Shown here: positions 30,104-56,144 of the stretch, in pieces
Layout of the letters: every line of letters begins with the position of its first letter
Numbering within the stretch: position 1 is the stretch's first letter
Origin: Hymenopellis radicata
Lineage: Eukaryota; Basidiomycota; Agaricomycetes; Agaricales; Physalacriaceae
Assembly (NCBI GenBank): GCA_015501595.1
Contig: JADNRX010000083.1
Coordinates: forward strand, 62,001 to 126,000
Length of the DNA stretch: 64,000 nucleotides
Direction: 5' to 3'
Notes under the pieces: generated by a model
What the model saw: only the letters and a program-made list of their open reading frames with translations
The model's database searches: none
What the model was told of the DNA's origin: nothing
Translations under genes and position numbers: made by a program

Positions 30104-30168
30104 ACATTCGAAGGATCTTCCCAGTATAGCTGGATGGGAACGGAAGACCTTCGCGTTCCGCTCCCCAG

Positions 30169-32662
30169 CTAAAAATCCTCCTTATCCTCTTCATCACTGT
30201 CCGTAACCTCTTCAATCGTAGTGGAATGATTAGGATGGGTTGTCTGGATCTCTGTCTGATTTCTGGGATCATCGGCTGCGACGATGACTATCGAAAGCGT
30301 GGGCATTTTGTTACGTTCACCATCCTTCCGAAGGGTCAGGCGAACTTCTCCAGACCGATTATAGTCGATGGAAGAAGAGAACCAGTGGAGGAATGGCTGT
30401 CCTAGTATGATATCGAATGCTCCAATCTTCTCGTTCTGCGAGACGAACATTGAAATTGGGAATATGTGGCTTCCAATCTTGAAGTCACGTTCGAGCAGAG
30501 TCCGCCGAGTCTCTCTGGTCCACCATGAATACCGCGTAAAGACCAGTTCGAGCCCGTATAGTCGAGAGGTAATGTGCAACGGTTTGGGATAGATGCGTCG
30601 CAGACATTGAGCTCCGATCCAGTGTCAATCATGACACGGAACGGTACGTCGTTGATATGCACAGTAAATGCTCCAGTAATCATCGCTAGGAAAGGCTTGG
30701 ATGGCATGGGCATAGCGCTGGCGTTGCGACGAACAAAGTTGGTGGTCCATTCAATGTCTTGATTGTTGACTACGAGAGACGCGCCACGATAAGGTGACTC
30801 GACCTCAGTTCCATCCGCATAGATAACTTCCACAGCGTCATTGTCTGAGCCGTTGAGATAGATCTCCTCCATAGCCTCTAGGTCGTACTTAGCGCACAGT
30901 TCCGCAGCTTGAGCAGAAGAGTACTCAGCTTGGCGTGCGGAATACTCGCGTCTCGGACGAGTACTCTCGCTCATGATCTTTTGCAGTGCAGGTGAAATCC
31001 CAATCAATTCGCGAATCGGGACCTGAACTTCCTTGTCCATCATGCGGTCGAACACCTTCTTATAGTCGACATTTTCCTGAACGTCGGAAGTAATGCGGTA
31101 TTGTGGAGTGTTTTGTGGGGACTTATCTTTAGCCCCTTGCTTCGTACTATCCTTCATTTCGACGTCTTTTGACGGGACAGACTTCTTCCAACCATCCTGA
31201 CGATTGATCGGGTTCGTCGGTGGCGGGATATTCACGTTCTTCTGTGGCTGATTCAGCGGAGGCGTTGATGTAGAACCTGGTGCTTGTGCATCGTTCCTTG
31301 TTGCAGGAGGTGTACTGAGCGGAGCTGGCTTTTGAGCTGGAGCTTTGCCTTTCTCCTTAGACGTGTCTGGACGCTTCATAGGATTGAAGCGGACATTCGT
31401 ATCTTTGCCATCGCGTAGTGCAGGGTTTGCCTTGGTTGTACGATTGTTGCGGTCCAAGTTATGTCCGTCTTCGAAGATAACCGAAAGAGGCGCAGCATTG
31501 GTAGTGCGAGCGGTAGGAGGTGGTTCAGGAATCTGCTGGTCGAGATATGCGAGCAGACCTCCAGGCTGTCCGCGTGGAACGTACGGAAGCCTCTTGAGAT
31601 CAGGAAGTACAAGAAGTCCAGTATCTGGGTGATATCTGATCCTTCCCGCGGCTAGCAAGCGTTTGACTGCGCTGCAGTTCCGAATTCCTCTTACATGATC
31701 AGGGTGGTCTTCTCCGCAGCCAAAGCAATACTCTGGCTCTTCCTCAGTAGGCTGTGCGGCAGGCGCAGGTGTAGATGATGGAGTCGCGTTGGGTTGTTCT
31801 CGAGCAGCTCTTTCAAGACGGCTGATATGAATCCGCATATCCTCCATAGCACGTGTCAGCTCTTCAATTGAGCCAGGTGGAGTTGACGACTTAGCTGGAG
31901 GAATTTCATCCTGAACAGTCTCTATGACTGTCTCCTTGGTCTCTGTACGCGGCTTCTCTTGTACAACACGGTTTCCTTCCTCGTCAAACTGAACAGTCTT
32001 CAACGTCTTAACGTTCTTCCAGTCCTCGTACAAGAAACTGTCCTTGTCAAAGCGTTTGTCCAAGATTTCAATGCTTTGGGTAATAGTCGGTGGTGTTGCG
32101 CGCGAACGGTTTTTGGTGGTGAGCTTGTTGTTGAAGCCTTCCTTCATAGCCGAAGGTAAACCGTCAACAAAGTATGCATTGTGCTCCTCCGTTGTAAGAG
32201 CTTTGTTCTTCTTCAAAGGTGCTGCGATCTTCAGAAAGTCGCGGTAATACGCTTCTATCTGGATTTTGGAAGTGAAGGGAGGCTTATTGGCTGCTTGTTT
32301 AACAAACGCCTTCAGCTCGTCGACTGTAGTCTCGCGAGGACGGTTACGCGATGCGTAAAGCTGCGAAAGAACCTTGACGGCAGCATCCCACGTCTTGTTA
32401 GGTATGTCATCATCAAACTCCTCGAGAAGCTGAATGTTCTCGCGAACTTCATCTGAGGAGTATCTGACAATGTAGGGGATGAGGTCATCTTTGTCGGTGA
32501 TGTTGGCCGCACGGCCATGGAGAACGAGGGTGTCGAGGAACAGCTTTGTGTTGTAACCATTATATTTGGGTGCGCAGGCGTTCCAGGAATGGGCATGGGT
32601 GTGTAGATCTGTGCATACTGTGCACTGGCAGGAGTAGTCGTGGAAGTAGTTCCAGCAGGCAT
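30169..32662 (-). pseudogene. gag: Gag-protease region, two frame breaks
   Basis: A start MPAGTTSTTTPASAQYAQIY at 32662 leads into the capsid-type region only after a one-base shift near 32575. From there a long frame runs through capsid (agaric gypsy pattern KTWDAAVKVL, TTVDELKAFV, LTTEEHNAYFVDGLPSAMK). It continues through a degenerate zinc knuckle (CFGCGEDHPDHVRGIRNC) and a Pro/Thr-rich linker to the aspartic protease motif VMIDTGSELNVC. Near 30490 the frame shifts again to IGSHIFPISMFVSQNEKIGA, then DIILGQPFLHWFSSS, the second half of the protease. Both breaks would stop normal Gag-Pol production unless they are frameshift sites or sequence errors. Confidence 0.8.
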
Positions 32663-32790
32663 GGTGAAGATGTGTTGGGATTGGGTTCAGATAAAGCTAA
32701 GATAAAGGTACGGTTGGTGCTAGACGCTGGTAACGTCGATAAAGATATAGTCGATGCAGCACTCGGTTAGGGCTGTAAACGTCCGGCTAA

Positions 32791-32808
32791 CCCTCGCGGT
32801 GGGCTCCA
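32791..32808 (-). other. Candidate primer-binding site
   Basis: One base inside the 5' LTR the minus strand reads TGGAGCCCACCGCGAGGG. TGG directly after the LTR is what a tRNA 3' CCA end would pair with. I cannot assign the tRNA. Confidence 0.6.
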
Positions 32809-32809
32809 C

Positions 32810-33320
32810 TGTCGAAGCGTGAGATGATCCTCACGGAGACAAGATTGGGAGAGAGTCGTCGGATCCGTACAGGCACGCTAGTGGAGTGGCTGGGAGGTGT
32901 GTCGTGGGAAGATATGCGTTGAGTGGTAGAGTAAAATACCGGATGTCGTCGCAATGGGAATCGTTACAACGACAGAGCAGATATGTGGAAGATAAAACAG
33001 TGAGATTGACCCGAGTGGTGGTACGAAGGTCAGAGAAGAAACTAACTACAGAGCAGTTATAAGTCCGATCTAGTGATCCGGGCGCGTAGTAATGTCCGGG
33101 CTAGTCACGACGCGGGCTACCTACGCTAAGCTAAGGTCGTATTTTTCTTGGGTAGAGACTGAATGTAAAAATGTAATACGTGTGAAACCGAATACCGTTC
33201 CTGTGTCCGTTCGGGAAATATAATAGGATTACTTTTCTTGCCCATCGGCTTAAGTCCGCTTAAGTCCGTTAAGTCCGATTGCGGCCGCGTTCGGTGTGTA
33301 AGACACGGCACCCTTCTACA
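32810..33320 (-). repeat. 5' LTR of the gypsy element
   Basis: 511 bp. On the minus strand it begins TGTAGAAGGGTGCC and ends CGCTTCGACA. It is the promoter-side LTR for gag-pol. Confidence 0.95.
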
Positions 33321-33510
33321 ACGGCGTTACCGGCTTTATGTCTTGATGCCCGGCAATATATTGCCGCCGAGTCCTGACCGTGTTTCAGTCACATGGGCAC
33401 GTATTTAAACCCAGCTCTAGTTTTTTTACACCTTCGTCTTGACGCCCATGTCCGGGGTCAAGCAGCAGCTGCTAGCCGTCTTTCTTTTCCTTTTGTTCAC
33501 CCTCGTGACG

Positions 33511-37022: not shown

Positions 37023-38276
37023 TAGAGGGAGGCACGAGTGGTAAGTACTTGCAGGTACTTACAAGTCTCGTCATCACCCGGGTGGTGCCGCACCCGGCAC
37101 CTGCACACCCGGCACTTGCCACCACCCGGGTGGTGCACGGGTGGCAAGTACGGGGTTAGCGTGGCAAGTATTTGCCGCAAGTACTTGCCTAGTACTTGCC
37201 ATAGTGCTGAAATATATTTTCTGGGATTTTATGGAATTTATTTGGGCTCAAACGAGCCCAACATTCGCGAGAATTTCTTGCCGAAGCCGAGATCGCCGAA
37301 GGTGCCGGCAATTGCCGGATAAGGATCGATCGTTCCAGATCTTTCCTCTTTACCTCCTGCCACCAGAGCACGACGTCGTAGTCGTGTTCGTCGGCCCCAG
37401 AAAATTTTCTGGGGCTCATACAACCTCATATCTTCGTTTTGCTTTGCTTTTCCCCAGCGGTTTGGCTTCGCGCCGGCCGCTGCGCCCTCGGATACGTTCC
37501 GGGGCGCATTCTGGTGCTCGTCTGCGCGACGGCACCAATCTGAGGACCCTCTGCGACACGTAAGCCCTCGGGATGAGGCCGCCCTACTCTGGAACAGCGT
37601 GCGCGGGTGCTTGGTCGTCAGATTTGCTCCGCCTCGCCGTATTTGCGCCAGCGGGCCCACGGAATGCGTAAGGACACGACAACGACAACGACGCACCTCT
37701 GCGACAACGACGGCACCTCCACGACAACACCGGTACCTTCACGACGACGAGGGGGTGCACATTGTTCTGCGGGGTGCATGGTGTCGCGGACACATGCAGC
37801 CCTAAAGGTGTGTATTTACATTTTCTTTCTTCCCTACCATCTTCCCGACGTCTCCTTACCCGCATCATTGTTACGGCGTCGTGGAGGTGCTCAGCCACCT
37901 TCTCTCTTTCCCATTTTATCCGCACTGTCCCCCAATCCTCTCCCCTTTCGCACCCGTCACGCGCACACCACGTCGTTCAGCCCCGCTTCTTGCTCACACA
38001 AGTTGCCGGGGTATGAGCAATGTTATCATGCTCGTCGATAGCCCCCGTGCAATTGCCCGGGGGTAGTCGGCGGACATGAAAAATGCGAATTCAATGCAAG
38101 TACTTTGGCAAGTACTTGCACACTCGTGAGGCAAGTACTTGCCAAGTACTTCACCCGCGGGTCAAGTACCCGCGGGTGGCAAGTATTTTCGCGGGTGGCA
38201 GGTATGGGTCTGGCGGCACGAGTATTTGCCGTGCGGGTGGCAGATGCACCCGGGTAGACACTCGTGCCTTGCTCTA
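37023..38276. mobile_element. Non-autonomous MULE-like element (1254 bp)
   Basis: Ends TAGAGGGAGGCACGAGTG and, inward from the right, TAGAGCAAGGCACGAGTG are inverted repeats. The 8-bp duplication TCTCCGCC flanks it (37015-37022, 38277-38284), and the debranching-enzyme frame is restored across the site. Subterminal zones (37037-37200 and 38095-38255) are packed with GCAAGTACTTGCC and CACCCGGGTGG palindromes. No transposase is encoded. It carries the H1 hairpin (38026-38079, inverted) and a CGTAAGCCCTCGGG motif near 37560, linking it to the other elements. Confidence 0.88.
38026..38079. repeat. H1 hairpin module, copy in the 37-38 kb element
   Basis: TCATGCTCGTCGATAGCCCC and the GGGGGTAGTCGGCGGACATGA-like right arm pair around TGCAATTGCC. 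Inverted relative to the MULE copy. Confidence 0.7.
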
Positions 38277-38850
38277 TCTCCGCCACTTTGTCGAATCGTT
38301 GCTTAAGCCATTGCGCGACTTTGGTAGGATTAGGAGATCTACTAGCTTGTCTGTAACGGAATAAGAAATTGTTGAATGTCAAAACCGAAGATGCGTACTT
38401 GTTGAAGTCGAGCATGAACATATGCTAGAGCCCATGGCCCATCGCGTAAGGGGCCACAAAGCGGATGTCCCAAGTCGTTGTAACGCACTGTAATGTGTCG
38501 CAGAGGATGCATCCAACCCTCTTGTGATTGTGGAGTTCGGTCTCGAAAGGCATGATGCTACCTGGAGGGAAGTACTCGGGGACACCGACTTCACAATATG
38601 GACCTTCGTGATAAACAACAGTAGGAATTTCAACCAATCTGCCCTCCAAGCCCTTCAAGATGTTCGGATCACTGGGAATATCGTAGTTGCTGATTTCGAG
38701 GCTGGTCCCGAAGATATAGTACTTGATTCCTCAGTTTTCTGCCAGCATATGTACAAACCTCTAAAACATGGTCTATAAAGGAGAGCTACACATATTTTAA
38801 ACAACTCGCTAACCCTACTTGTACGACTAGAAGATGACAATGAAAACATT

Positions 38851-39640
38851 TCTACTCGTAAACCGAAGAGGAGGACTCATTGTCAACAATAGGAGAGTCA
38901 TCACACTCGCGCCTTTGGAGGAGATGAGGATGCGCCGTACATGACTAGTGATATGCTCGTCATCTCCTCCTCACCACCAAAGCTTCGCCCACCACTGAAT
39001 GTGCGACCACTCCACAGGTGTCTGTGCATCACGCCCGCACGTACAGTGGATCCCGCGAAACCGACGAGTGAGCAAACGTTGAAGGCGAAATACACTGAAC
39101 ACACCTGGAGCGTGTCATTAACCCTCACTTGCCCCAAACTCGTATGCATCGCGCGCGCCAGCGCCGTGTGCATGTGCATCATGTGCGTGCCCAATCGGAG
39201 TCTGTGACTCGGTAAGCCGCATATAAATCCTACCGTTAGCACTCACCCTCTCAGCTCCAAGAAGAGCCAGATTGCATTAACAACAATCTCGTCCTTATAG
39301 TCCAGCATCACCTTGCCCGGTCCGTCTAACGAAGAGTAGGACCCGCGAACACACCTTTATCCTTCGTCCGCGCGGCCAGACACAATGCGAAGTCTAACTA
39401 GAAAGATTGAATTAGGCACGAGAACAGAGGACGAATGGAGATTTACGTTAGTCTCCTCAGTTCCTCTTCTACCAAGTCTTCTACCATCGTGGACCGCACC
39501 TGCCATCCCGCAACACGCGCTGCCAGCGCCGCCATTATGCATAATCGGCTTCAGATTCATTCGCATTCAGGCCTGTCGTCCAGGGCAGTAATTCACAATC
39601 AACAGAAGATTACCAAGTTGTATTGAAGGAAGACTCACCG
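38851..39640. other. No recognisable gene
   Basis: No persistent frame, repeat or element end is visible. It lies between the debranching-enzyme relic and the interrupted gene to its right. Confidence 0.45.
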
Positions 39641-39649
39641 TCTTGCCCT

Positions 39650-40781
39650 TGCACATCAAACCAAAACCAACCCCCCATGCTCCGCCGCGTCCACTCCCTT
39701 CTGCACACCCCGCTCACGAAGGCCAGTCTCGTCGCGCGAGGGCCCGTCATTCCATCTGAGACAACCTAACAAATATCAACTTGTGAGTTGATGTGTGATC
39801 CAGCAATCACCTACCTCCTCGAGAAACCGCTTATACTCCGTCGTCTCTCCGTTATCCATCAACGGTGTCTCTCCGATAACACCTGAAAAATATCAAATCA
39901 ATGCCGGGTGCCAAAGCAATCGATATGACTGACCCGACGTCAAATGGCTCAGCGCAAGCGGCGTCATCAGCCTCTGGCTTAAGTAAAAAAAGTCTTCGTC
40001 GAGCAGGCGCCCAGTAAAGATGAGATCCAGATCCGAAGGAATGTCGGCCGCCGTGCCAACGTGCGATGAGGCAGACGCAGACGAGGAAGGGTGAGTGCCT
40101 GGAAAATAGGTTGGTGAGATTCAATGGCATGAGGGCAGCGAGTCTCACCAGACAATGGAGGCAGCGGCGCCACGCTACCCTCGCTCCCGAACACTACACT
40201 GAAGCGCACCACGCTTCGCATCCGCCCAAAATTAGGAGGTGGACTGTCAGGTGCGGAAGAAGAAGCGTGAAGCACACTCACCATTTGGGATAACCTACTG
40301 TCTTGGTCGGTGGATGATCCTGGAATGCCAGGCCGCCCAGCCATTCTTGTAATACTTGACCATATCCACCATGGCTTTGAGCGCCTACTCGTGCGCCGTT
40401 GGCGGGAACGTTAGTGCACCTAGAGGGTGTGCGTCAGCGTACGAACTAACGACAGGAAAGAAAGGTAACATGAAAGCCCAGTTCAGGTCAGAATACAAAG
40501 CCAATATAATAAGAGAGAAAGATAGCATCAAAGGCGCATCCCAAAGGGAGCTCAGATGGAAGAACACGAACGAAAGCAGAGAAAAATGAAAAAGCGCGAT
40601 CCAAAGACCATATGAACAGGGAAATAAAGTACTCACCACCTGCCGGTCCAGGCGCCACGACTCATCCCTCTCCAAACCCAACAAGAACACCGATATCCAA
40701 AAAAATGTCCTCCCCGACACCCAAGTCTCCCAAGATGGCCGCCTTCCTTACATACGTGAACGTCAGGGTCGCCGCGGACAA
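39650..40781 (-). pseudogene. 3' part of an unrecognised multi-exon gene interrupted by the KDZ element
   Basis: Minus-strand exons with canonical introns read LSAATLTFTYVRKAAILGDL (next to the KDZ element), VLQEWLGGLAFQDHPPTK, RFSVVFGSEGSVAPLPPLSG, ADIPSDLDLIFTGRLLDEDF, ALSHLTSGVIGETPLMDNGE and VVSDGMTGPRATRLAFVSGV. One in-frame stop (about 40660) breaks the first exon. The upstream continuation lies at 49942-50080, beyond the 9.15-kb KDZ insertion: PFDKLIRSL joins directly to DLSAATLTF across the duplicated GTCGAGC site. I do not recognise the protein. Confidence 0.5.
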
Positions 40782-40788
40782 GTCGAGC

Positions 40789-41306
40789 CACCCTATGATG
40801 TACCCATTATACATTATATCCTCTAATAAGAGGGCACCGTTTTACATTACAGCCTCTAATAAGAGGCCTCTAACTATAGGCAGATAATGCATTACACATG
40901 CCCTCCCTATATAGCAGCACCCGCGGGCGGCCTGTAATGCATTATGATGCCCGCCCGCCCAGCTGGCAGTATGCCGCGTGAGCCGTGATGCCGTGTTGGG
41001 CCACTGGTGCCGGGTACTGGGTCCGGTATCGGTAATCCCCGATTCACCCGAAATACCCGCCCGCCTCGACTTTGCGCCACAGATACTGATATGAGGGTAC
41101 TCTTAGCTCAACAGGGTATGTCTACCCATTCATTCTAGTACCGGTAACCCGCCCGCTCATCATAATTACCATTTTTGGCATACCGATCCCGCCTCCAGCC
41201 CCCACCCGCTGCTCCTCGTCCCCTGCCACATAATCGCGGTACATTACACACTACGGCACATACCTAAAGCTTCTGTGCTTTTTCTAAAGCAGGACGTCGT
41301 GACGCT
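40789..41306 (+). repeat. Left terminal inverted repeat of the KDZ element
   Basis: About 518 bp. Contains short internal inverted repeats such as CTCTAATAAGAGG (twice) and TAATGCATTA (twice). The transposase stop codon lies about 100 bp inward. Confidence 0.95.
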
Positions 41307-41407
41307 TAGGTCGTGTGAGCAATGTCGATAGCAATCCGGAACTTGCCGGCTCCGAGAACTACAGAGAATGGTTCGAATTGACAGTAAAAGCTACAGTTGT
41401 TGTACAG

Positions 41408-44400
41408 TCACTCCTCATCCAAGTCAATATCATCCTCATTATCATCCTCAGCTTCCTCCTCCTCAATCACCACCTCCACAGGCTCCGCTGCGGTTGGGAG
41501 CCCATCCAACAGTTCCTGCCCAACCCTTCGGAGACCCTGCCAACGTGCCTCTAAGTCAGCCGCCACGTCCTCGTGAATACGTGCTTGTGATTCTGCGAAC
41601 GCCTGAAGACCCTCCTGATCCGCCGGTGATAACTCCGGATGGGCCTCGCGTTCACGCCACCAGCGCGCCTGCCATTGGCGAAACACAATTACGCGGCGCA
41701 TTTCCTCCAAAAGCAACGCGACTTCTTCCTCCCACCGCATTTTGCGGGCATGAGCCTTACACCATTCAATCTTTACGGCTTCAAAGATATGGCATCAGTT
41801 CCATCGAAAACTAGCATGTTAATCACATTACCTTCATGTATTACCGGGTCGTTGTTCCTTTCAGCAACATTGATGGCATCCACCACATCAGGATAGCTGT
41901 ACCAAATCCACGAGAGCAGGCGCCGCCCTTCCCCTCTTGCCACAACCGCATCAGAATTCTCTGGGACGACAATCAGTTCATCAATTATACCCCGTTCAGC
42001 AAGTGACTGCCGTTCTGCTGTTTCCTCTGCCGTTAGCAGCCGCTCGTTCATACCCCTGACATCGACTTCATTTAGGACCCGTAACTCGGCCTCCCAAGTG
42101 CCGTGGCCGCGCAAACGGAACAACACATTTCTTGACCAGCGGTATCGCAATTTGTTGAGGTAAATCGCGACCTGGAAGCGGCGCTGTACTCCTTCTGCGC
42201 GGGTTGTCGGATTCTGGCCAGTCACATTTCGAACTGTGAAGAGATGACCAGCGGATCGTGTCCGCAACCCTTGACGAAGTGACTCCAGGGCATCCCTGCA
42301 CTCTCCCTCGCGTAGCCGGGTCTCCCCATCAACTATCCCTGGCAGACATGCGCGAGGAAGGGCCCGATCAACGGCTCGCAGCTCTGATGGCATGAATAAT
42401 TTTGTCTCTTCGGGAAGAATGGCGGCAGGACTGTCGAGGACTTTGAGTTGGTCTGCAGTAAGATATTCGCGCAAGCTCGGCATGAACGTCTGTTGTAGGC
42501 GGCGGAATTTTTTGATGTCGCGTAGAATCACGTTACGATGGCGCTCGACGTTCAACTCCTGATACGTTGTCCCTGAACGTTGAACCTTGACTTCCCAGGC
42601 CAGAGAGCGTCTACCCATCGGAAGTCAGCATGTTGTCAAACTCACACGCATCAGAGGCACGTACTGTTTCTCCTCGATCTCGATCCCTAATGTTAAGAAC
42701 AAACTCATACTCGATTCATGGCTCACGGCGCCAGTCCGGAGACTCGCCTGCTCCTCGTGTGCTAGCTGCAGCTGAATATCCTTCAATGTTTCTTTGTTTT
42801 GAAGGTGCGGTTCGTAGGGGCAAGGCTTGGAATGATCCTGTTCCCACACCAACACCTCCCGCTGCCACGCTGTCACTGTGTCGGATCCTACGAATAATTT
42901 CATGCCGTTATTAAAATCTGTGAATTCAATCGCATGCGCGCGCGCCTCCTTGATCGCCTCGGCCAGACGCGTCGTAAAAACGCGACCTGACTCACGAATG
43001 AGTATTTTTCTAACCATAGATAGCGAGATCAACGTACCGAATGAGCGCACCACGCGATAGTTGTGTGCAGCAAAGATGTCATCAAGGGTATCCTTCCGAG
43101 CGCCCGGTCCCATCATTTTGGTCTGCGAGGCTGCTCGGTTACTGTTTGACCAGTTCTCTTCGATTGTTTCGCCGTGGGTTCGTCCGGCGCCAATGAGGAA
43201 GTTGAACGAATAGAGAACGTGACATTGAACCTTAAATAAAAATCTCTTAATTACATTTTGAGTCTTCCACAGTATGGACATACCCTATGAGCCCACAAGT
43301 GAAATTTGGGTACACAGAATCGAATCTTACTGGGATCAAAACTCGCGCGCCATTGCAAGGGCAGCTGGTTAAGCCGATCCGGAAAATGGACACCCCAAAT
43401 GCAGACAATATCGTACGATAGCACGACCCCCAGATCTCGGTTCGCCATCAATGATACAGCGACGAGAGGGTCAACGTTACAGAATCTGAGGTGTTATCAG
43501 CAGCTAATCTTGCCCCGCCAGATCAACACGTACCTCTCTCCTCGCTGGAGATCACCCATCCCGTTTGGGCGCCAGACCCCATGGCGGGCACAAGTGACAC
43601 CGGCAATTCCGGTTGTACGGAGGCCTTTCGTGTTCTTGATGTCCGCGAGAAACGTCGCCTGCAAAGGAATAGCAATGTTAATGTTATTACGATGCATCAA
43701 AACCCACAAGCATTTGAGTACCTTAAAGCCCGAACACGATGCCATGTCTTCTTGGCTGACAAAAGTTCGAATGTGGTCCTCGTATGGACCCTGTTCAATG
43801 AAGAACCCCCAGCCATCACCAAGCGGAGGGTCGCGTTCAGCTGTGGAAACAACAGCGTTACGCAACCTGAAGTTTGCATCAATGGCGAGAAAGAGTTGAT
43901 ACAAAAATCTATATCAAGTCAGCAAGAATTCAATGTATCAGTTGGGCCAAACACGAACCTTTTCTCAGCCGGCGTTGAACCCCAATCCCAGTCCGGCGGT
44001 AAGTTCCTCTTTGGATGGGGACACGCAGGGCATGCCACGGCTAGTTCACCGAGCGATGTCCCTGAGACGCCAGATACAGCATGTCCTCGCCCTGCGCGTT
44101 TCAAGAGTTTGATGTGCCGGAATTGCCGGATGCTGCGAAGGAGCACCTTGTACCGATACGGTACGAGAGCCTGTGCACGATGCTCGGACATGGTCTCGAG
44201 TGCCTTCCAGACGTCCCAAGCCGGGAGTTTGCCAAGTGAATTGAGATTGTGAAAGAGACGAAGGAGTGTGAAAGTCGACGCCGTACGCGGCTGCAATGGT
44301 GTTGACGGCCACCACGAAGCTCGGAGGAGTTGAATGTATGGCGCCGGTGCCGAAGTACAACCACAAAAGTAGAGATTAACGGAATGAATACCGTTCGTAT

Positions 44401-45180
44401 GGAGTACGGTAAAGGATGAAGTCGTTTGGTGACGAAAAGGGCATCGTGCACCAGCGGCATGTCCTAATTGTATCGGTAAATCGAGGGCTTTCAGAGAGCA
44501 CGGCTCGAAGAAGGTTCCATTCCATCTCTGGCAGAATTCGTTAAATTAAAACGGCAGTGTGAGTGATTTTCAGGGGACCTTACCTCGATCCAATGGAGGG
44601 GTTGATTCGCGTGAAGCGCGTAACAGCACGACTTACACACCAAACCCGTCAACATGCAGTCATTCTCCGTACATCGATATGTCGCCGGCGATGGGTCCTG
44701 AGAGCATAGTGGGCATAGATCCGGACCGTCTGAGCGACCCTCCAATCGCAGGAGTTCCCTCAGGTAAGAATCGTGATATTCGCGCCAGGTGTTCATTGGA
44801 TTGTCCTGGTTAACGATTAGTATTGCTCGTGCTGTGTGTATGTCTTGAGGAAACTCACACTGTTTTTTGTTGCGAGGCTTAACAACTACCACCACGCCAT
44901 GATTGTCCTCTTTCCGCGCGTTTACCTCATGACCATCCGTGTTCTCGCCAAACAGATAAGAAAACCCGTCGACAGTATCCGCCAGTACCGCTGATGTGAG
45001 ATCCTCCTGCGGTTCAAATGGCGGAGCCTCATACACAATGTCGAAATCTTCCAAGGGTCGCGACCTCCAGCTGGCACGTCGTCCATTGGCAGATATTGCC
45101 AGAGTAGATCCAATGGGCGCCTGGTTTGTGGACGAGGCAACGAACGTCGGGGCTTTAGCCTTCTTGCCACGAGACTGCAT
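41408..45180 (-). CDS. KDZ transposase with CxC2-type N-terminus, intact
   Basis: The gene starts MQSRGKKAKAPTF at 45180 and ends in an acidic tail EEEEAEDDNEDDIDLDEE. The N-terminal cysteine cluster (CPLCSQDPSPATYRC, then CKSCCYALHANQPLHWIE and RWNGTFFEPCSL after an intron) is the CxC2-type domain. The catalytic RNase H fold follows: LFLAIDANFRLRN (first D), VVLSYDIVCIWGVHFPDR (second D), KFHLWAH, and GRTHGETIEENWSNSN (third acid). MGPGARKDTLDDIFAAHNY and the C-terminal KIEWCKAHARKMRWEEEV coiled coil complete the family pattern. I followed about seven introns and all keep the frame. It lies divergent to C2 and D2, and its stop is about 100 bp from the left inverted repeat. Confidence 0.93.
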
Positions 45181-45552
45181 TCTTTGAGAGGTAACGAAGT
45201 GATAGAAAGCTCTGAAGCAGAAGCTCAGATGAGCAAGACCAAGCTTGGGGACAATGCATTCAAAGAAAGGTCGAAACTGCTTTTATACGTACATTGGTCG
45301 GAGACACTTGCATAAAAGAATGGTCACGAAAGAATGGTCAAACATGTCGATATCATAATTCTTGCACAAATTTTCCGAGATTTACAGTCAGGAGGAAGGT
45401 CGGGCGAACGAGTGAATGAGAACAAAATGGGAGGCAGATGACAGATGATCATTGATCAGATTGTCAATCCGCCTGATCGATGTCGACTACTTCTTTTCTC
45501 CACCATCACCGCCTCACACTGCTCTCGCAGTCCGTCGTACGCTCACAGAGAC

Positions 45553-46203
45553 ATGCTCTCTGTTCAATCCGCGGCTCTTCCTCGCGTTAACCCTGGCACA
45601 TCGCCGTGCCTCCCGCCTTTTCATCCGGACATTCGTGCAGAGAATTCTTCCGGCGATTCCAGCGAGAGATTTTTCTTAGTCCTGCGTGGAAAGGAAATTG
45701 GGGTTTGTACCAGTTGGTGAGTTGCATTTCGTTGCTTAGTGGCGTCCTGGATTGCACTGACATATGCCGTAGGGATACTTGTCGGCACCTCATCGGACGA
45801 GACGACTCCTTGTGGCAGACTTGCACCACTTGGAACGAGTGCATCACACGATGGCAGGAGAAATGCGACGCCGGCATCCTTGGACCTCACAACTGCCCCA
45901 AAATCACTCCACAACTTGTCGCTCGACCTCGCGCCAAAAAACCTTTCCCCAAGTTCCGGTCTCTGCAGCCAGAATCCAATGATCCTGCGTCGCCCACCCC
46001 GCAGATGCGGGTTTGGATAGGAGAAGAAGCCGTGGCAAGGCTGGCGCCATCCTGTGAATACCCGTAGGTTCCATCCTCCTTTCTTACGATGCCATTTGTT
46101 AAATCATCGCAGAGATGATATCACTGCAGATGATGCTAGCGCAGACGACGACGTCGTGGACGATGCTACTATTGACAACGAGAACGGTTATTCACTTCTT
46201 TGA
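45553..46203 (+). CDS. C2: small viroplasmin-type (RNase H1 N-terminal-like) protein in the KDZ element (181 residues)
   Basis: Exons 45553-45716, 45773-46063 and 46113-46203 join in frame, 546 nt, ATG to TGA. ERFFLVLRGKEIGVCTSW followed, after a phase-2 intron within that Trp codon, by DTCRHLIGRDDSLWQTC matches the viroplasmin/RNase H1 N-terminal pattern, with the intron in the same place as in C1. The rest is a helical segment (TWNECITRWQEKCDAGILG), a PRAKKPFPKFRSL stretch and a very acidic tail (DDITADDASADDDVVDDAT). It lies 372 bp downstream of the divergent KDZ transposase start and just before D2 on the same strand. The fold binds RNA-DNA hybrids in RNase H1; the role here is unknown. 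Confidence 0.8.
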
Positions 46204-46445
46204 AATCACCTATGCCCTTTACATTCGCCATATTCTTACTTTACCTGGAATATTATCGATCGATTTTATCTACCTCCGCCTGCATGATCGCCAAAATCCA
46301 TAACGGCAAATGCGGCGGTCACAACCGCACGTGGCTATTCCCCTCTGGTCCGTTTTCCCTATTTTCATTGTCTGCAGTAATTTGGTACGCACAGCTGGCG
46401 CTTACAGTGACTACAGACCTAACACCCCATCAGTCCCGTCTCATC

Positions 46446-49136
46446 ATGACCAAAGGGAAAGCCGATTCGAAGAAACGTGGCAAGAAATCCTGGATCTCTG
46501 GCACCAGGCTCGCCTTCTTCGCGAGCCAGAAATCCGAATGGGAGAAGTCGAGCAAAGCCCGAAACAACAAGCAATGGGGTCGTAAAATGGCAGTCCGATA
46601 TAACATTCGTTACGGCGATTTAGAACCCATGGTATGTCTCTAATATATATTGCTTGCTTTCGTGCTTATGCCCGTGGCAGGAGGACCTCGAAGAAGAGCC
46701 CGTGATGCCTACAGACAGCGAAGTAGAGGCCTGGGAGGCGGCCTTTACAACCAAAATTTCGGCTTCGAACAAGGATGAGGCCGACAAGAGTGAGGAAGAG
46801 TTGTTAACGTTGACTAAGGTGTGTTCCCTTTGCCCCGAGAGAAGTCATGGAATAACACGAAAGGCAGACAATTCTTTCGTGGTACCACTACACCTACAAG
46901 GCCTCGAAGGCCGAGGACGACAAGCTGTTGTCAGATATGGTCAGCCAGATCCACGGACGCAAGGAGAAGCCCCGCCGTGTGCAGCAGGTCCAAATGTATA
47001 CGAGCGTCAACTGGGATCTCGGACTGAAGGACGCTATCACCACCGAGCACAACCGTGTCGTCGCCGAAGTCGACGAGGCGCACAAGAAAGCTCTGGAAGC
47101 TGATCGCCATGCCGAACGCCCCGACACCGAGACCTTCCTTTCCGTCACCCGTCGCATCGTGCAGGCGAAATGGGACAAGGAGCCAGAGGACGTGAAGAAC
47201 AACATCAAGGCTATGGTCGAGCAGAAGCTCGTTGATGACACGGCTGCCTACAAGGCACTGAACGACATGACGCCGTCTCCGGAGCTCTACCAAAAGTGAG
47301 TTGTCAAGCCTTTCGATTTGTAACACTCTGACACTTCGATAGTGCTCTAGAACGAGGTGCTGCGTACCTCCAACGCATGGCGGATACAATGGCAAGCACG
47401 ATGGGCCTTGCTTGCACTATCTTGTTGTGCGGTCCGATGGCCGAAAAGGGCGGGCGCATCGAGGTCAGAAGGTACGTCTTCGTCACTCTTGGTTCTCCTT
47501 CACGATTTACCCTTCGTGCAGCGTTCACTCTGGTGTAACCCGCACTGCTGGACTCAAATGGAACGAAGATGATCCCGCCGGCTTTGGTGAGATTGAGAAG
47601 TGTATGACTCGCTTTGGAAGTAAAGTGTTTTGTAAGTCTTTTTTATTGCTTTCCGTACGCTTTATACTTATTAATTCATTCACAGCCGAGGCGCAGTGTG
47701 CTAGTCATGCGCTGCAGGGCGCCGTGCCTCAGAACAACGATCTCGATGAGAACGCCGCGGCGCCCATCAACACGACAACAAATGTGTCTGATCCCACTAC
47801 GATTGAATCATCCGCTACAGGAGTCGACACCACCAACGTTACGGCTCCCGTCAACGCCGCCAAGGACATCCCGGCTCCTGTGAAACCCGTCGAGGATATC
47901 CCACAGAACCCTCGCTGCACAACTCCACCACCATCACCTCCCCCAGTTCCAACGACACCCCCTCTTCGCGCGAATCAATTTCTGAATGAGGAACTCGCGG
48001 CACTCCTCCGGCTACTACCTGACACGGAGCGCCGTGCTTGTATGAAGGAGCTGCGACAGATGTCCGATTACCAGTTCAATCAGCAGAAGAGTATTGCCGT
48101 TGCGCATGCCGCACTCGTGAACATCGTCGCCGACTCCCCACTCAATCCGATTTCCATCGTTTCCCGGTATCTCCCTAAGAACCGGAAGGCGAATCCCTGG
48201 AAAGAGCTTCTCGAAGGCGGAAAGAAGGGTCAGGACAATGCAGCGGAGAAGGAGAAGGAGAACGATGAAGGGCAGGGGCAGGAGGTGGAGCAAGGTGGAG
48301 ATGATAGCGAGGATGGGGACGACAAGCGAGAGAAGGTTGCCACCCCCAACGCTAAAGTCGGGGAGGCAGTTCACGAGCTCATGGACGTCGACGAGGACCT
48401 CGTGGGTGACATCGGCGACCTCAGCTGGGATAATGCGGACTCGGCAAAATGGTGGCCCGAGTTACGCTCCGCCTTCGAGGCTTTCAAGCGAGGCAAGGGG
48501 TGGGGTACGCTGTGGAGGGCACTCATCGACTCCCTTCTCGTGTTCGAGGAGAAGGCGAGTTTCGTGGACGATCCGAAGATTACCCTTGGCACCAATCACC
48601 GTCCCAACATTGTCGCCGAGTTCATGAAGGACCGGCGGAACTACTCCAAGACGAGGCGGATCGACTCTCTCGAGGAGTTCAAATCGACGTTCTGGTGCTG
48701 GTGGAAGTCTTTTCAACCCTCGGCGAGGCTCTCGGGTGATAGCTTGACGAAGCCGGACTGCATCGAGTGGGAGAAACTACAAGACAAATCGGGAAGGAAT
48801 GGGATCATTTTGGTGATAGCGGTTTTGTTCTGGTGGGGTGAGGCTATTCATGGTGGGACTGACTCGGACAGACTTGCCCTCGAAGACTGGGCTCTCGCCG
48901 TGACGGACGTTACCTGGGTACTCGATAACATGATTCGGACCGCCACTTTTCGCCGGGTCAGCAAGGCGAAACCGGCCTCGGTTCGAGACGCGGATACACC
49001 GTCCACTCGCCAGACTCGGAAACGAGTACAGCCGGACGATGCGGATAAGGAAAATGCGCCACTTGTTAAGGTACTTTTTTTGTTCTTGTCGATTTCCTCA
49101 ATCTGATCTGGTTATTAGAAGCCCCGTCACAAATAG
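46446..49136 (+). CDS. D2: KDZ-element accessory protein, intact (797 residues)
   Basis: Seven exons (46446-46631, 46681-46818, 46868-47295, 47343-47471, 47522-47631, 47686-49070, 49119-49136) give 2394 nt, a multiple of three, ATG to TAG. The N-terminus is basic (MTKGKADSKKRGKKSW). Helical region VEQKLVDDTAAYKALNDM precedes a compact domain (YLQRMADTMASTMGLACTIL, LCGPMAEKGGRIEVRS, FGEIEKCMTRFGSKVFS). A Thr/Pro-rich linker, a helical acidic segment and the C-terminal domain with GRNGIILVIAVLFWWGEAIH follow, then a basic end. D1 at 12-15.5 kb has the same order and several identical intron phases. No known enzymatic motif is visible. Its place inside an intact KDZ element makes a helper or cargo role likely. 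Confidence 0.85.
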
Positions 49137-49424
49137 CTCATGTCTTTTACTCGATGCTTTCTTTAGTTTACTTTAGTTTAGTCTTGGTCTCTTTTTGTTT
49201 TGTGCTAATTTTCGTATTGCAAGTTTATCCGAGCGCATCCAGCGCATTTCTCCTTCAATAGTTACAGCTTTATGGACAGTATGCATAGAATAGACTACAT
49301 CTATGATATTTAAATGTGGGAGGCATTCCCGCTAGTGGATCCCGCGTGGGCGCGGTTGAAATGCGCAAGGTGTGTGGTGCTCTACGGCCGTGGGAATTTT
49401 GCATGTTGCAAGGTTATAAGTCCA
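49137..49424. other. 3' flank of D2
   Basis: T-rich just after the D2 stop (TTTAGTTTACTTTAGTTTAG near 49165). No gene is visible before the inverted repeat begins. Confidence 0.5.
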
Positions 49425-49941
49425 GCGTCACGACGTCCTGCTTTAGAAAAAGCACAGAAGCTTTAGGTATGTGCCGTAGTGTGTAATGTACCGCGATTAT
49501 GTGGCAGGGGACGAGGAGCAGCGGGTGGGGGCTGGAGGCGGGATCGGTATGCCAAAAATGGTAATTATGATGAGCGGGCGGGTTACCGGTACTAGAATGA
49601 ATGGGTAGACATACCCTGTTGAGCTAAGAGTACCCTCATATCAGTATCTGTGGCGCAAAGTCGAGGCGGGCGGGTATTTCGAGTGAATCGGGGATTACCG
49701 ATACCGGACCCAGTACCCGGCACCAGTGGCCCAACACGGCATCACGGCTCACGCGGCATACTGCCAGCTGGGCGGGCGGGCATCATAATGCATTACAGGC
49801 CGCCCGCGGGTGCTGCTATATAGGGAGGGCATGTGTAATGCATTATCTGCCTATAGTTAGAGGCCTCTTATTAGAGGCTGTAATGTAAAACGGTGCCCTC
49901 TTATTAGAGGATATAATGTATAATGGGTACATCATAGGGTG
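49425..49941 (-). repeat. Right terminal inverted repeat of the KDZ element
   Basis: About 517 bp, reverse complement of 40789-41306 with one clear difference (TTTCGAGTGAATCG against TTTCGGGTGAATCG). Confidence 0.95.
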
Positions 49942-50080
49942 GTCGAGCGACCTGATTAATTTATCGAAGGGGCTAAATGCACCTCAGTGAGAGAACAAGG
50001 CGAAAAGGAAAGACTCGATGTACCTATTCCTCAAACTAGCCTGGTTCGCCGCGGGGCCCTTCAAATGGCTCGGGTATAGC
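49942..50080 (-). pseudogene. Middle part of the interrupted unrecognised gene
   Basis: The minus strand reads VLLYPSHLKGPAANQASLRN, then a 51-bp GT..AG intron, then PFDKLIRSLDL, and runs into the KDZ target site. On its other side the gene is cut again by the 6-kb element starting at 50081, whose duplicated target GGTATAGC is part of the reading. Confidence 0.5.
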
Positions 50081-51327
50081 TAGGGTTTTCGGGTCAGGTC
50101 AAGCTTAACCGGTCAAATCGCTTGACCTGACCGGACCTGACCGAAAAATTGACCGGTAACACTTGACCGGTCACATAATTTGACCGGTCACGGTCAACGG
50201 TCAAGGCCTCAGCGAGAAATTTCCTTGACCGCGCATGACTGGTCATAACCAGTCATGACCGACTATATGTATAGTAAATAAACAGGCCACAACTTATAAG
50301 TAAATGATGCATCATATTTTCGGTAGGACAACACGCTGCACAAATGTGCAGCAGTTATATCCTGCACGAAAATAGACAGAGCGGCATCAAATTCCCAAGA
50401 TCCAGATCTTCGTGGTGTCTTGGTCGTTGCCGTGGTGACGTGTCGTGGTGGTCGCGCAGTTGTTGGGGTGAATAGTCGCTGTTGTCGCGGCGTCGTCGCT
50501 GCCGTGTCGGGGTCATGGTCCGAGTCGTGGCGTCATGCCACGGATGTCATCGTCGTCGCCGTGCTCTGGACGTGGTGGTGGGCTTGTCATCGTCGTGTGC
50601 ACGTTGTCGTCATCGTGGGGATACGCGCATAGTGGTGGTGGGCGATATGCAGCTGTAGAATCGAGCAGCAGTTAGTACCAAAGTACAATGAGAAAAAGAC
50701 ACGCACCTTGACGGCGCCGCCTGCAGCCCACAGCACGGCGTCAAGTTTATGAATTCTCTACCCCGCGGGGGTCACCATCATCATCGTTGAGAATTTGCAG
50801 CCTCATTCGAGGGCTTACGCGCCGTGCGGGGCCGTTGCCTTCTCCTCTAAATCCCGCTGTCTGCTGCTATGGTCGTTGCCGTCGTCATGGTGATGGGGTC
50901 GTAGTGGTCGTAGCCTCGTCGCTGTTCTTGTGTTGCAAAACTTCGGTGCTGACGGTGTGTCCTCGTTTTGCCGGGTTGTGCTGGCGTCGGCGCGGTGGAG
51001 GTGGTGGCGGCAGCGTAGTCGTCGTCGTCGTGGAGACGTGGTCGCGGTTCTCGTGGTGGGGTAGTCGTCCTGGAGGTGTAGTCCTAGCGTTTGAAAGTCA
51101 GGTCTCATAACCGCTAAAAGACCGCTGACCAGACCTGACCTAACCACACATAACCGCTATAGTAAGTGACCGTGGTTACAGTCACTGACCGGTCACGGTC
51201 AACGGTCTCACAAAAAGAAGAAATACAATAACTGCTAATAACCGAACACACTCCGGTCAAACCGGAGTCACGGTCAGACCGGTTATTGACTGCCCTAACC
51301 GGTGCTAACCGGTCATCCTGGACAAAA

Positions 51328-51404
51328 TGGACCCCATGGGAATTGAACCCGTGGAGTCCGACCGTTCATATGCAGGTATGTCAGCCAATTTTTCCGTTGT
51401 GCCA
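51328..51404 (-). repeat. tRNA-like segment at the left end of the middle element
   Basis: On the minus strand a T-arm-like ACGGGTTCAATTCCCATG precedes GGGTCCA. The 5' half is degenerate, so it is not a functional tRNA. It directly abuts the subterminal array and points outward. Confidence 0.5.
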
Positions 51405-51581
51405 AAAGGTCATATTCATTTTCAATTTTTACACTACATGACACCTTGCTCAAATAATATGGTCTCACAAAAATACTACTACGGTATACTCACTCCACAA
51501 TGTGTGGCGCAATATCAAGCGTTGCACTTCTCAAAACTCGCGTTCATACGAGTTCTGCGAACCGCGACCTCTGTGAATCCA

Positions 51582-51649
51582 TTCATGCCCGATGAGCATC
51601 CCCGGGCAATGGCACGGGGCCATTGCCGGGGACGCTCAGCCGTGCATGA
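51582..51649. repeat. H1 hairpin module, copy in the middle element
   Basis: TTCATGCCCGATGAGCATCC pairs with GGACGCTCAGCCGTGCATGA-like sequence. This copy has an extra GGGCCATTGCC in the centre. Confidence 0.8.
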
Positions 51650-52224
51650 TAGCGGACTGAGAGTAGGATGATGGTGGGAAGGTGATGGTGGTGGGGATGG
51701 TGATAGTGGGGGAAAAGGAGTGGTAGTGGAAAAGAAGAAAAACATACCTATTGCACGGCGTCGTCAGACGCGCCATGCACTCATATTCATAAATGCCGCC
51801 ATGCACGTAACGGTATTTCCACCTCCTCTGCTCCTGAAGTCGGCTCCGTGAACACAGTCGGAGTCGGCCGCGGGATGGTGGCCATCCGTTCTCGAGTCTC
51901 GAGTCGTCGTTATCCTATGCTGGAGTCGTGGTCCTCTGCCTGGTCGCGGAGACAGCAGCACCTTGTCGCGGAGACAGCAGCGATGCCCGGCACGAAGCCA
52001 AAGACAGAAGATGCACCCCACAGCCTGCCTGACAATCGTCAGCGCGGCAGAGCTGACAATCGTCGCGCGCTCTGGGTGGTCGTCGTGGTTGAAGAAGAGG
52101 ATTGGTCGACGGTCGTGCTGGGTGCGATAAGTCGATGTGAAAACAAAAGAAAAAAATATGCACCATGATGACGCTACCTGCAGCCGACAGCGCGACGTCG
52201 AGTTCACAAATACTCCAGCCCGCG

Positions 52225-52515
52225 GGGTCACCATTATCGTCGTTAAAGATTTGCAGCCTCATTCGAGGGCTTACGCGTCCTGCGGGGCCGCCGGGGCTCT
52301 TGAAGCCCGCATATCCACGAAAAAAGGGAGAAAAAGTGGTAGATTGCAGCGGAAGGACGCCTGGAAGACCCGCGTCCCATGGTCGAGTCGTCGGGGTCCA
52401 GGCGTCGCGGGTGGTGGTGGTTTGAGAGAGAGATCGAGCACGAAAAAGTGCCTCGATCACCCCTCGGATGATCGGACCGGGCTGTTTTTGGCACGTTCAT
52501 CGTGCTCCAGCACTG
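52225..52515 (+). repeat. Shared core module, copy 1
   Basis: About 290 bp, from AAGATTTGCAGCCTCATTCG through GAGGGCTTACGCGTCCTGCG to GGATGATCGGACCGG. It is about 80 percent identical by eye to 55160-55445 in the outer element and related to 62250-62330 and 62760-62930. Confidence 0.8.
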
Positions 52516-52746
52516 CAACGAAGACGATTCAAGCTCTAAAATATTGCGGGATGAGTTCCTGCAGTACTTTAGAGTCTTTAATTTTTTGGTTGATTTTTGG
52601 CCTACAGAGACACGATACACACACTGAGACTAAGAATTTGTCTCTGTGATATTGTACGGTAAGTCAAGTCTACATATATTTGTATCAGACATTGCCTTTA
52701 CTCATACAGATATCTCACCCATAGTTTATATGTGCCTCCTTGTCGC

Positions 52747-53860
52747 TAAGGAATAGCACAGGTTGCGTGGGTTGGCGCGGGTCGTGGGTACGGGTTGGCG
52801 CGGGCACGGGTGTGGGTTGAGAGCTAGACACCCGTGGGTAACCCACTGCACCCGCACCAACCCGTACTACAGGCAAGCACTGCAAGACATATCTAAAGTT
52901 AATTTACAATATTTTCTCTGAGTTAAACGGGCAAGCATTGAAGCAAGCAGTGCACGATAATTTCTCGCGATCCGGCCTTTCGGGCCGAGATCCGACGCGA
53001 CGCGTAAGCATTTGATCGAGTCGTTGCTGTCTCTCTCTCTCCAACCACTACGACTACCAGCGAGCGACAGCCGTCACCGCTGCCGCTCTGACAACTGTCA
53101 GACGGTCTCTGGGGTGTGTGCTTGTGGCCCTGGCTCTGCGCCGGGCTTACTGCCGAAGGACGACGACCGACTGAACGACGACGACGACTTCCGGAGCAGG
53201 ACAACGACTTCTGGAGCAAGACAACCAGGAGGACGTAGACGTCTGGAGGTGGAGAAGACGTGCAGCAGAGCAGCACGCGACGACGAGAATTCCGGACATG
53301 TTCCTTGGACTTGAACTTGCTCCCGATCGGCTGAGAGCCGTCCTGCTCGATTCCTCTCAGGAATTGGTGTAACATGGGTCGTTGAATTCGATGAATTTGA
53401 GTACGGGACCCGTGGGGGATGTACACGGTGAGATCAAATTTCATTTGATTCGTGCACGTTCTTGACCTTTGTTATTTTTCAGAATGGAACGTCTTCTTCT
53501 ACCGCGGACAGAATGTACAGTCAACTCTCCGACTCTTCTACCACCCCATCCTCTTCCCCACTCTCTACCATTCAGGCTATTTCTTCCGGTAGTCGCGAAG
53601 GCTGGACAACACCCACCACTCCCATCACCCTCAGTCCCTGCATCATGCACGGCTGAGTGTCCCCGTGCCATTGCCCGGGGATGCTCGTCGTGCACGAATA
53701 GATGTGGGTGATGGGAGAAGTAAGTCTGTGAGCCCATGGGCTGGCCATGGGTTGGCAAACCCGCGTAGCCCGTACCCATATGGTACGGGTGTTAACCCGC
53801 GACGGGCACGGGTGTGGGTGTCCCTCCCGACACCCGCGGATCCTCCCGTGCTATTCCTTA
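52747..53860. mobile_element. Innermost element of the nest (1114 bp)
   Basis: Ends TAAGGAATAGCACAGG and inward TAAGGAATAGCACGGG are inverted repeats, flanked by the 8-bp duplication CTTGTCGC (52739-52746, 53861-53868). Subterminal zones (52755-52870 and 53745-53845) are rich in CACCCGTGGG/GGGTACGGG words. It contains the H1 hairpin (53644-53700, inverted) and TGACA..TGTCAG motifs near 53060-53105. No transposase. Confidence 0.88.
53644..53700. repeat. H1 hairpin module, copy in the innermost element
   Basis: ATGCACGGCTGAGTGTCCCC pairs with GGGGATGCTCGTCGTGCACG across GTGCCATTGCCC. Confidence 0.8.
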
Positions 53861-54712
53861 CTTGTCGCTGTTCGACGTGCACAACACCTTCGACGATGCC
53901 CGGATTTTAGGTCCGGCGATCCGAACAGTGCTTGATCGCTGTTCGGAACCGTCATCTCTCTTCCACTAACCACCATCAGATCTTCGTCTCCCTCTTACCA
54001 CCGTCATGTACGCATAAGCCCTCATGTTGAGGCTGCTCTGTCTTGTATGCGGGCCTCAAGAAACGTTTACGACAACGTTCCCGCCGCCAGAGTCACGATT
54101 AACGGCCGCGTAAGCCTTTGACAACAGGCAGCATACTGGGCCCGCAGGTGCGTTGGCCATGATACAGTTTTCAGCCTACTAACCAACATCATCTAGCCTT
54201 ATTCTCTAAATGCGGAGTTTATGGACTGTGTTATCTGACGTCGTCCTGTCTGATGACAGGCGGCGTCGTGAAGGTGCGCTTGTTTTATGCCGTACTTTAG
54301 TACTAACTTGCTTTTAGTACCAGGACCACCGCTGCACAATGATGAGGACAAGGATACTCCCACGACGATGCCTACCCAACGACGCCGACAACTACTATAT
54401 TGGCCCGCAGGACGCGTAAGCCCTCGAATAAGGCCGCACGTATCCCACCACCACGAAATATCTTCTTCCCTTTACCCTGTCTCATCCTCATCCCTCACTA
54501 CCTCGCGGCCATGCAACATTGCTGACAATGTCATTGTATCGACGGGAGGTGTGGGGGGTGATCGTGCACTACGGCATGCAGCCTGTGCTATTTAGCACAG
54601 GTATGCGCCGAAGGCACGAACAAGCCAACTGTACCATCGACCTCCTGAGTATTTGGGCAGTACACTAACACAATCCACGGATTGAGTTGTCTATGAATTG
54701 TATACTGAGAAG

Positions 54713-54785
54713 CAAGGTTAGTTTAGTGGTATGCTCTATCCAGTAATGTGAGTATACCATCTGAGGTCTTGCGTCAAGCCTTTGT
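54713..54785 (+). repeat. tRNA-like segment at the right end of the middle element
   Basis: AAGGTTAGTTTAGTGGTATG has the look of a tRNA 5' half (A box). The 3' half (GAGGTCTTGCGTCAAGCC) is a weak B box. It directly precedes the subterminal array and points outward. Confidence 0.45.
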
Positions 54786-55159
54786 TACTGCTTTGGCTGT
54801 GGTTAACACCGGTCATAACCGGTTACGACCAGTTGCTGACCGGTCTGACCGGAGAGCAGTCAGACCGGTCATTAACCAGTCTAAAGACCGCAGTTAAGTG
54901 CCGGTTACGGTCAGACCGCGGTCACGGTCACCGGTTAGGCCTAAAAAAATTTTCCCCTGCGGGGCGCGGTCAACGGTCATGGTAGGTAAGGTCCAAAGAC
55001 CTAACCTAACCTGACTTTCAATCGCTATGTAGTCCTGTGAATGAGGATAAGGTCATATGGGAACTGTAAACGATACGCACCTTAACGACGCCGCCTGTCA
55101 GCAGACAGCGCGGCGTCGGGTCCCCAAGCCAATCTCCTGAGGTCTCTGACCCGTGGGGG

Positions 55160-55445
55160 CTCTCCATCATCGTTATCAAAGATTTGCAGCCTCGTTGGAG
55201 GGCTTACGCGTCCTGCGGGGCCGCCGGGGCTCTTCAAGCCCGCACATCAACGAAAAAAGTGAAAAAACAAGGTAGATGGAAGGAGAACGACGCCTGGAAG
55301 ACCCGCGTCCCAAGGTCGGGTCGTCGGCGTCCAGGCGTCGCGAGATGATGGTGGTAAGATGGTGAGATCGAGTACGAAAAGCATCCCGATCACCACTCGG
55401 ATGATCGGACCGGTGCATTTTTGCGACCTCGGGATGGCTCCAGAG
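55160..55445 (+). repeat. Shared core module, copy 2
   Basis: Same orientation and order as 52225-52515, in the right half of the outer element. Confidence 0.8.
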
Positions 55446-55825
55446 GTGCAACGAGAGCCGCGTTTGCATTCGGATAAGTCGGGATGCATTCCTACGATGA
55501 TTCTTGACATCTTTTAATTTTACCTATTTTTGGGTTACTGAGAGGATGGTACCGCACTACAGTGCGCGTTACCACCATGTCCTATTAATCTTGAAGTACT
55601 TGCAACGATATGGGCAATGTATCTCAATGGCAACATATGTATATATATAGTAATCATTATAGAACAATCCACAAAGGTCAGTAGTGCTATGTGGATTGAA
55701 TACAATGTTGAAACCATGAACACGAATGTGCTAACATGGTGAGTTAATAATAACCGTCGCATACTCACAGTTGTCTTTGCATCAGAGCCGCAAGCGAGTA
55801 TGACACCCGTAGATTCAAGTAAATC

Positions 55826-55910
55826 ATGTCCTAATGGCTGAGTGGAATTAGTGATGGTTAGTGCCCCAACCGTATGGTGAGGTCTTCTGTTCAAAACCTG
55901 CTTGTGTCAT
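55826..55910 (+). repeat. tRNA-like segment at the right end of the outer element
   Basis: GTCCTAATGGCTGAGTGG (A-box-like) and GGTCTTCTGTTCAAAACC (B-box-like) are spaced as in a tRNA with a long variable arm. It precedes the subterminal array and points outward. Confidence 0.45.
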
Positions 55911-56144
55911 TTTGTTCGGCTGCCTACCTGGTTATGACCGATCATGACCGGTCTTGACTCGGTTATGGTTATGACCGGTTGTGACCGCTTAACCGGGCTT
56001 GACTTGACCGGTTAAGCTACTTGACCGGTCACGGTTAACGGTCAGGCCAAAATGCTTGATTTGTGTAACCGGTCCGGTCACCGGTCAAGCCATCAAAAGG
56101 TCATTTGACCTGACCTGACCTGACCTTGAAACCCTAGGTATAGC

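Follow-up and report, generated by a model that had tools for sequence, protein, structure and literature searches.

A well-delimited 9.15-kb KDZ transposon with long inverted repeats and two additional genes in Hymenopellis radicata

A stretch of 64,000 nucleotides (the window, C1218:62001-126000) from the genome assembly of Hymenopellis radicata (Physalacriaceae; 75.5 Mb, 1,405 contigs) was analyzed, and an element of 9,153 bp was delimited at window positions 40789-49941. It carries a transposase gene of the KDZ superfamily, which was reportedly named in a 2014 PNAS paper, and two further genes, designated B and C, that lie divergent to the transposase as a preliminary description of this DNA had proposed for its C2 and D2, which it gave without coordinates. 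The terminal inverted repeats (40789-41305 on the plus strand, starting with CACCCTATGATGTACC, and 49425-49941 on the minus strand) are 517 bp each and, when the two ends were compared, agreed at 516 of 517 bases; a separate inverted-repeat search of the window recovered the ends as a 519-nt inverted pair. Across the window CACCCTATGATG was found once per strand, both times at an end of the element, and the ends are CACCCTATG-like. The termini read CACCC..GGGTG, i.e. CA..TG, and the element is flanked by GTCGAGC at 40782-40788 and 49942-49948. Thus both the near-identical inverted ends and the flanking duplications of the preliminary description were confirmed. A subterminal palindrome, CCTCTAATAAGAGG, is located at 40820-40833, is repeated once 33 bp towards the interior and may be a binding site. 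At this palindrome 69.0% of cells were paired among 12 sequences, and the further pair types were reached by 1 of 500 shuffles; since only 12 sequences were available and the palindrome was shifted in contig C1094, a hairpin considered at this position is not claimed.

Since the 7-mer GTCGAGC is present 12 times in the window, both strands counted, its duplication alone is little proof of insertion. Stronger proof was provided by an empty site. When the 400 bases to the left of the element were compared with the genome, one other match was obtained, on contig C814. This contig is collinear with window positions 38277-40791 (95.5%) and 49942-50080 (97.1%) and runs through a single GTCGAGC with the element absent, a counterpart that the preliminary description had suggested looking for. 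Because no match was found beyond window position 56544 in the C814 stretch compared, C814 may be either a duplicate or, in a dikaryon, the second allele, and the site is empty in either case. Two more stretches of the window had no counterpart in C814: an insertion adjoining the element at 50081-56136, with ends TAGGGTTT..AAACCCTA and an 8-bp duplication GGTATAGC, and a third stretch at 37023-38276.

The transposase gene (41408-45180, minus strand) was modelled from predicted splice sites with eight exons (45180-44584, 44527-43959, 43908-43722, 43658-43534, 43485-43284, 43230-42646, 42585-41832 and 41778-41408) separated by GT-AG introns of 48-63 bases. The resulting 1,129 codons are free of stops, in agreement with the frame claimed for the transposase in the preliminary description. 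When individual exons were searched against Pfam, PF18803 (CxC2, the second exon) was matched at 5.2e-34 and PF18802 (CxC1) at 3e-07, while two exons matched the KDZ domain PF18758 above the cut-off (9.7e-15 and 9.5e-16). KDZ was the sole transposase family above the cut-off among the exons scanned, and by its KDZ domain and cysteine cluster the predicted protein belongs to the KDZ superfamily. A database search gave 255 related proteins at E <= 0.001, the best listed being from Mucidula mucida (70% identity over 89% of the query), and the best 120 were aligned. In all 118 nearly invariant columns, defined as those in which at least 93% of the letters agree with the consensus and more than 80% of rows are filled, the transposase of the element kept the consensus residue. 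These include D399 (120/120), D518 (113/116) and E581 (118/118), the putative catalytic acids. A partial copy of the transposase on contig C16 showed 71-89% protein identity across five stretches, and for three stretches the ratio of nonsynonymous to synonymous substitution rates (dN/dS) between the two was determined, with values of 0.11, 0.29 and 0.08.

Gene C (46446-49106, plus strand) was predicted to encode a protein of about 792 amino acids with a conserved helical C-terminal domain. Its six exons are located at 46446-46631, 46681-46818, 46868-47295, 47343-47471, 47522-47631 and 47686-49070, the last possibly extending to the stop codon that ends at 49106. On contigs C685, C269, C544, C1094 and C1295 the N-terminal and the C-terminal part follow each other collinearly, and the position and phase of the middle phase-2 intron are shared by the window, C685 and C269, indicating that C is one gene. 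The possibility that the two additional genes are halves of gene C was rejected, given this conserved intron and the separate position of gene B. None of the gene C pieces matched a Pfam family over the cut-off, and no PDB entry was matched by sequence at E <= 1 with a profile of 17 gene C sequences. The whole protein gave no match at E <= 0.001 among 8,000 scored database candidates, which low-complexity words possibly crowded; residues 572-766 matched two unnamed database proteins (P0121 and P0122). The predicted structure of the C-terminal 253 residues was all-helical, and comparison of this model with folds gave weak helical-bundle matches only among the 398 chains aligned.

In the genome, 61 stretches matching gene C were assigned to 36 loci, and their distances to KDZ genes were determined using the best 150 of 166 genome KDZ matches (the listed KDZ stretches). 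A listed KDZ stretch was found within 6 kb at 13 loci (11 divergent, one convergent, one on the same strand) and at 6-20 kb at another 13 (six on the same strand, five divergent, two convergent), while ten loci had none. Many of the loci far from KDZ have just the C-terminal part in common, at low identity. For this domain dN/dS was 0.13 (C685-C1295), 0.27 (C592-C427) and 0.18 (C593-C684) in three close pairs and 0.63 in a fourth, where the changes were very few; in three pairs at greater distance, saturation was reached or nearly reached. Together with the ratios of the transposase, these values indicate protein-level constraint on the transposase and C, which is seen more weakly for B. On contigs C593, C641, C463 and C999, distant relatives of gene C lie 10-13 kb from a KDZ stretch in divergent orientation and may be parts of larger elements with a similar plan; at C999 a PF01693 match lies between the KDZ stretch and the gene C relative. 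Within the window a distant gene C-like stretch was noted at 15188-15490 (plus strand), and a KDZ stretch at C1218:61505-62236 (plus strand) lies before and across the window start; each has an equal-score match on contig C1307.

Conservation of the stretch between KDZ and gene C revealed a separate gene B. Between C685 and C1295, 14 of 15 100-base windows of this gap showed 84-96% identity and one 77%, a higher similarity than that of the aligned stretch including part of gene C (81%). In the element, gene B (45553-46205, plus strand) is predicted to encode 181 amino acids with a putative RNase H1 N-terminal-like domain; its exons were placed at 45553-45716, 45773-46063 and approximately 46113-46205, the last intron being uncertain. 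When nine KDZ-C gaps were searched by tblastn, homologues of B were found at C685, C1295, C544, C269, C1094, C167 and C592 in addition to the window, and C427 gave merely a short tail match. Genome-wide, 19 matching stretches made up 11 loci, eight of which lie between KDZ and C (C1295, C685, C544, C424, C269, C592 at 22.6 kb, C1218 and C1094). On C427, a 10-kb contig on which no KDZ stretch is listed, B is located upstream of C; the remaining two loci (C592, 67.7 kb; C16, 0.6 kb) depart from this layout. The C685 homologue matched PF01693, the hybrid-binding N-terminal domain of RNase H1, at 36.7 bits (curated cut-off 21), and the C1295 homologue matched the RNase H1 structures 3bsu (1.7e-5), 1qhk (6.4e-5) and 6vrd (1.2e-4). 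Unlike RNase H1, the B models contained no RNase H catalytic domain in Pfam searches. Judged by this putative domain, the product of gene B probably binds RNA-DNA hybrids or double-stranded RNA.

Other copies with the same ends, for which the preliminary description had also suggested searching the host assembly, were found. The 16-base end pattern CACCCTATGMTGTACC had 36 exact copies in the genome compared with none for the reversed control. Of 13 inverted pairs examined, 12 had both ends exact and one (C507) had a right end off by one base; 11 of the 36 ends were left unpaired. Exact 7-bp duplications were present at 12 of the 13 pairs. Four pairs contain genes, namely those on C1218 (9.15 kb), C1094 (9.4 kb), C544 (10.1 kb) and C424 (13.2 kb), and in all four KDZ, B and C are arranged in the same order and on the same strands. 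The three besides that of the window lie elsewhere in the genome and share its ends, its long repeats and the 7-bp length of its duplication, so the gene set is not particular to the window copy. The other nine pairs are 1.5-3.2 kb long. Neither KDZ nor C was found in the three short elements read whole, which consist of arms of about 1.15 kb around some 330 bases. Loci L041, L042 and L043, each about 2.63 kb long, are foldback-like: their arms measure about 1.15 kb, and they have the 16-base end core as well as exact duplications of 7 bp. Arms within an element were 94.1-99.8% identical over 406-1,155 bp (seven elements, with C424 measured part-way), whereas arms of other elements matched those of the window in stretches of 61-195 bases at 67-80%, which suggests homogenisation of the arms within each element. 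Repeat divergence was therefore not used as a measure of age. On C685, candidate CACCCTA sites considered as ends of the gene cassette were dropped.

On the DNA level, the 7-bp duplication and the CA..TG termini point to the Kyakuja branch. Two Kyakuja families of Laccaria are described with 7-bp duplications, CA..TG ends, no inverted repeats and a TET/JBP gene, in the passages covered of that account (Kojima 2025, PMC12730594). The present element thus resembles the Kyakuja of Laccaria bicolor and other Agaricomycotina in its KDZ transposase, duplication, termini and possession of an extra gene. It differs in having 517-bp repeats, and genes B and C instead of TET/JBP; repeat-free ends are known from the two Laccaria families and are not shown to define the group. 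A TET/JBP cargo was rejected, since none was detected in a Pfam scan of nine exon pieces and none of the three matches in a genome search with PF12851 was over the cut-off. The same passages give 8-bp duplications for Zisupton and a Dileera, compared with 7 bp here (PMC12730594).

The KDZ1-3 elements of Cryptococcus neoformans are about 9-11 kb long with inverted repeats of 139-241 bp, and insertion into a reporter gene is reported in the passages covered (PMC12810828). They are similar to the element in superfamily, size, inverted repeats and a single CxC-domain transposase. They differ in carrying CxC1 rather than CxC2, in duplications of 8 bp (KDZ1) or 4-8 bp (KDZ2, KDZ3) and in shorter repeats, and genes like B or C are not mentioned in those passages. 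In Pleurotus ostreatus, the long form of the Helitron helpo1.3 contains a 10.7-kb extra segment with capD, capE and capF; capE has PF01693, capF has an RNase H-like fold and is a putative transposase, and inverted repeats flank capD and capF (Castanera 2014, PMC4289320, in part). This segment looks similar to the present gene set, with PF01693 shared by capE and the homologues of gene B, a putative transposase and inverted repeats beside the genes; its authors interpreted the genes as viral ones captured by the Helitron. Compared by description only, capD-capE-capF may instead be a three-gene KDZ transposon. Precedents thus exist singly for the size, the superfamily, the long repeats and the presence of an extra gene; the combination of a 7-bp duplication, long repeats and the KDZ-B-C set was not found in the open-licence papers searched. 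The element is a well-delimited new form within the known KDZ superfamily.

We are highly confident that the element is a complete, probably autonomous cut-and-paste KDZ transposon, Kyakuja-like and belonging to a three-gene KDZ-B-C family. Several observations weigh against this reading. Judged by its ends, the full-length element is single-copy in the genome: a 151-base probe from its start had two full-length identical matches, both being the element's own ends, and the remaining 14 matches were partial at 76-91% identity. That this copy moved recently is for this reason supported by the empty site only, and C814 may represent a duplicate and not an allele. Among the relatives, the second pair on C1053 has no duplication, the CACCCTA sites at the C685 cassette lack a matching one, and coding copies are damaged by stops in gene C on C424 and in gene B on C685. 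As for gene B, the window copy matched PF01693 at 14.3 bits only, under the 21-bit cut-off, and dN/dS between C685 and C1295 was 0.40 over 183 codons, with a stop in the C685 copy. A genome search with the PF01693 profile, the controls of which rang in 2 of 14 genomes, gave ten other matches, all over the cut-off, and just the one at C999 has the expected strand and is flanked by a listed KDZ stretch and a C locus.

It is possible, if unlikely, that the element is a relic which is no longer mobile, and its single-copy state would fit such a history. The open frame with the consensus at every nearly invariant column, the near-identical ends and the empty counterpart site argue otherwise, and the element may well be active at present. 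Rather less probable is the view that the element picked up B and C from the host by chance and carries them as passengers with no function in it. It is consistent with the divergence of the window copy of B, with the 23 of 36 C loci at which a listed KDZ stretch within 6 kb is missing and with the lack of a domain of known transposition role in C (Pfam, PDB by sequence). The same order and strands of the three genes in four bounded elements and further cassettes, and the constraint on gene C, speak against it, and many of the distant C loci share the C-terminal part only. The conserved gene order and the constraint speak for a role of B and C in the element. An origin of the repeats and duplication in an assembly error or in nested or fused elements would suit the single full-length copy and is extremely improbable in view of the single GTCGAGC on C814 and of the three other gene-bearing pairs with the same structure at other sites. 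Equally hard to credit is a KDZ gene carried as cargo between ends of another superfamily: hAT7 makes 7-bp duplications and PlavakaB ends in CATCA..TGATG, but the duplications of Plavaka are 2-3 bp (PMC12730594, in part), 12 of 13 pairs here have 7 bp, no transposase family other than KDZ passed the cut-off among the exons scanned, and all four gene-bearing pairs have KDZ genes between these ends.

For an autonomous KDZ transposon, the transposase would recognise the 16-base ends, perhaps together with the subterminal palindromes, excise the element and insert it with a 7-bp stagger, and the shorter relatives with the same ends would have been moved in trans. As a guess, B together with C might aid transposition or counter silencing. 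TET/JBP dioxygenases are thought to counter DNA methylation, and the TAV protein of caulimoviruses carries a domain of the RNase H1 N-terminal type. In the part of one account covered, TAV is said to suppress RNA silencing (PMC5734791). By analogy, and doubtful as the proposal is, B might mask double-stranded RNA or RNA-DNA hybrids from RNA-based silencing and so replace TET/JBP, C might act as a partner of B or as another subunit in the transposition complex, and the captured viral genes of helpo1.3 might represent a transposon of this type that sits nested within the Helitron.

Elsewhere in the window, positions 24487-33329 are bounded by direct repeats of about 520 bp (95.8% identical) and have minus-strand frames with integrase zinc-binding, RNase H, reverse-transcriptase and DUF4100 matches, features that identify a long terminal repeat retrotransposon. 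An open frame of 703 codons with MULE transposase and SWIM domains was noted at 7756-9864.

The element provides a base-exact reference, with an empty site and short relatives, for a fungal KDZ family, so that its ends, target and gene content are directly testable. It also points to two accessory proteins that were retained as the elements of this genome diverged. The gene set also offers an alternative reading for Helitron genes earlier called viral captures. If B does turn out to counter silencing, the superfamily would have a second strategy of this type in addition to TET/JBP.

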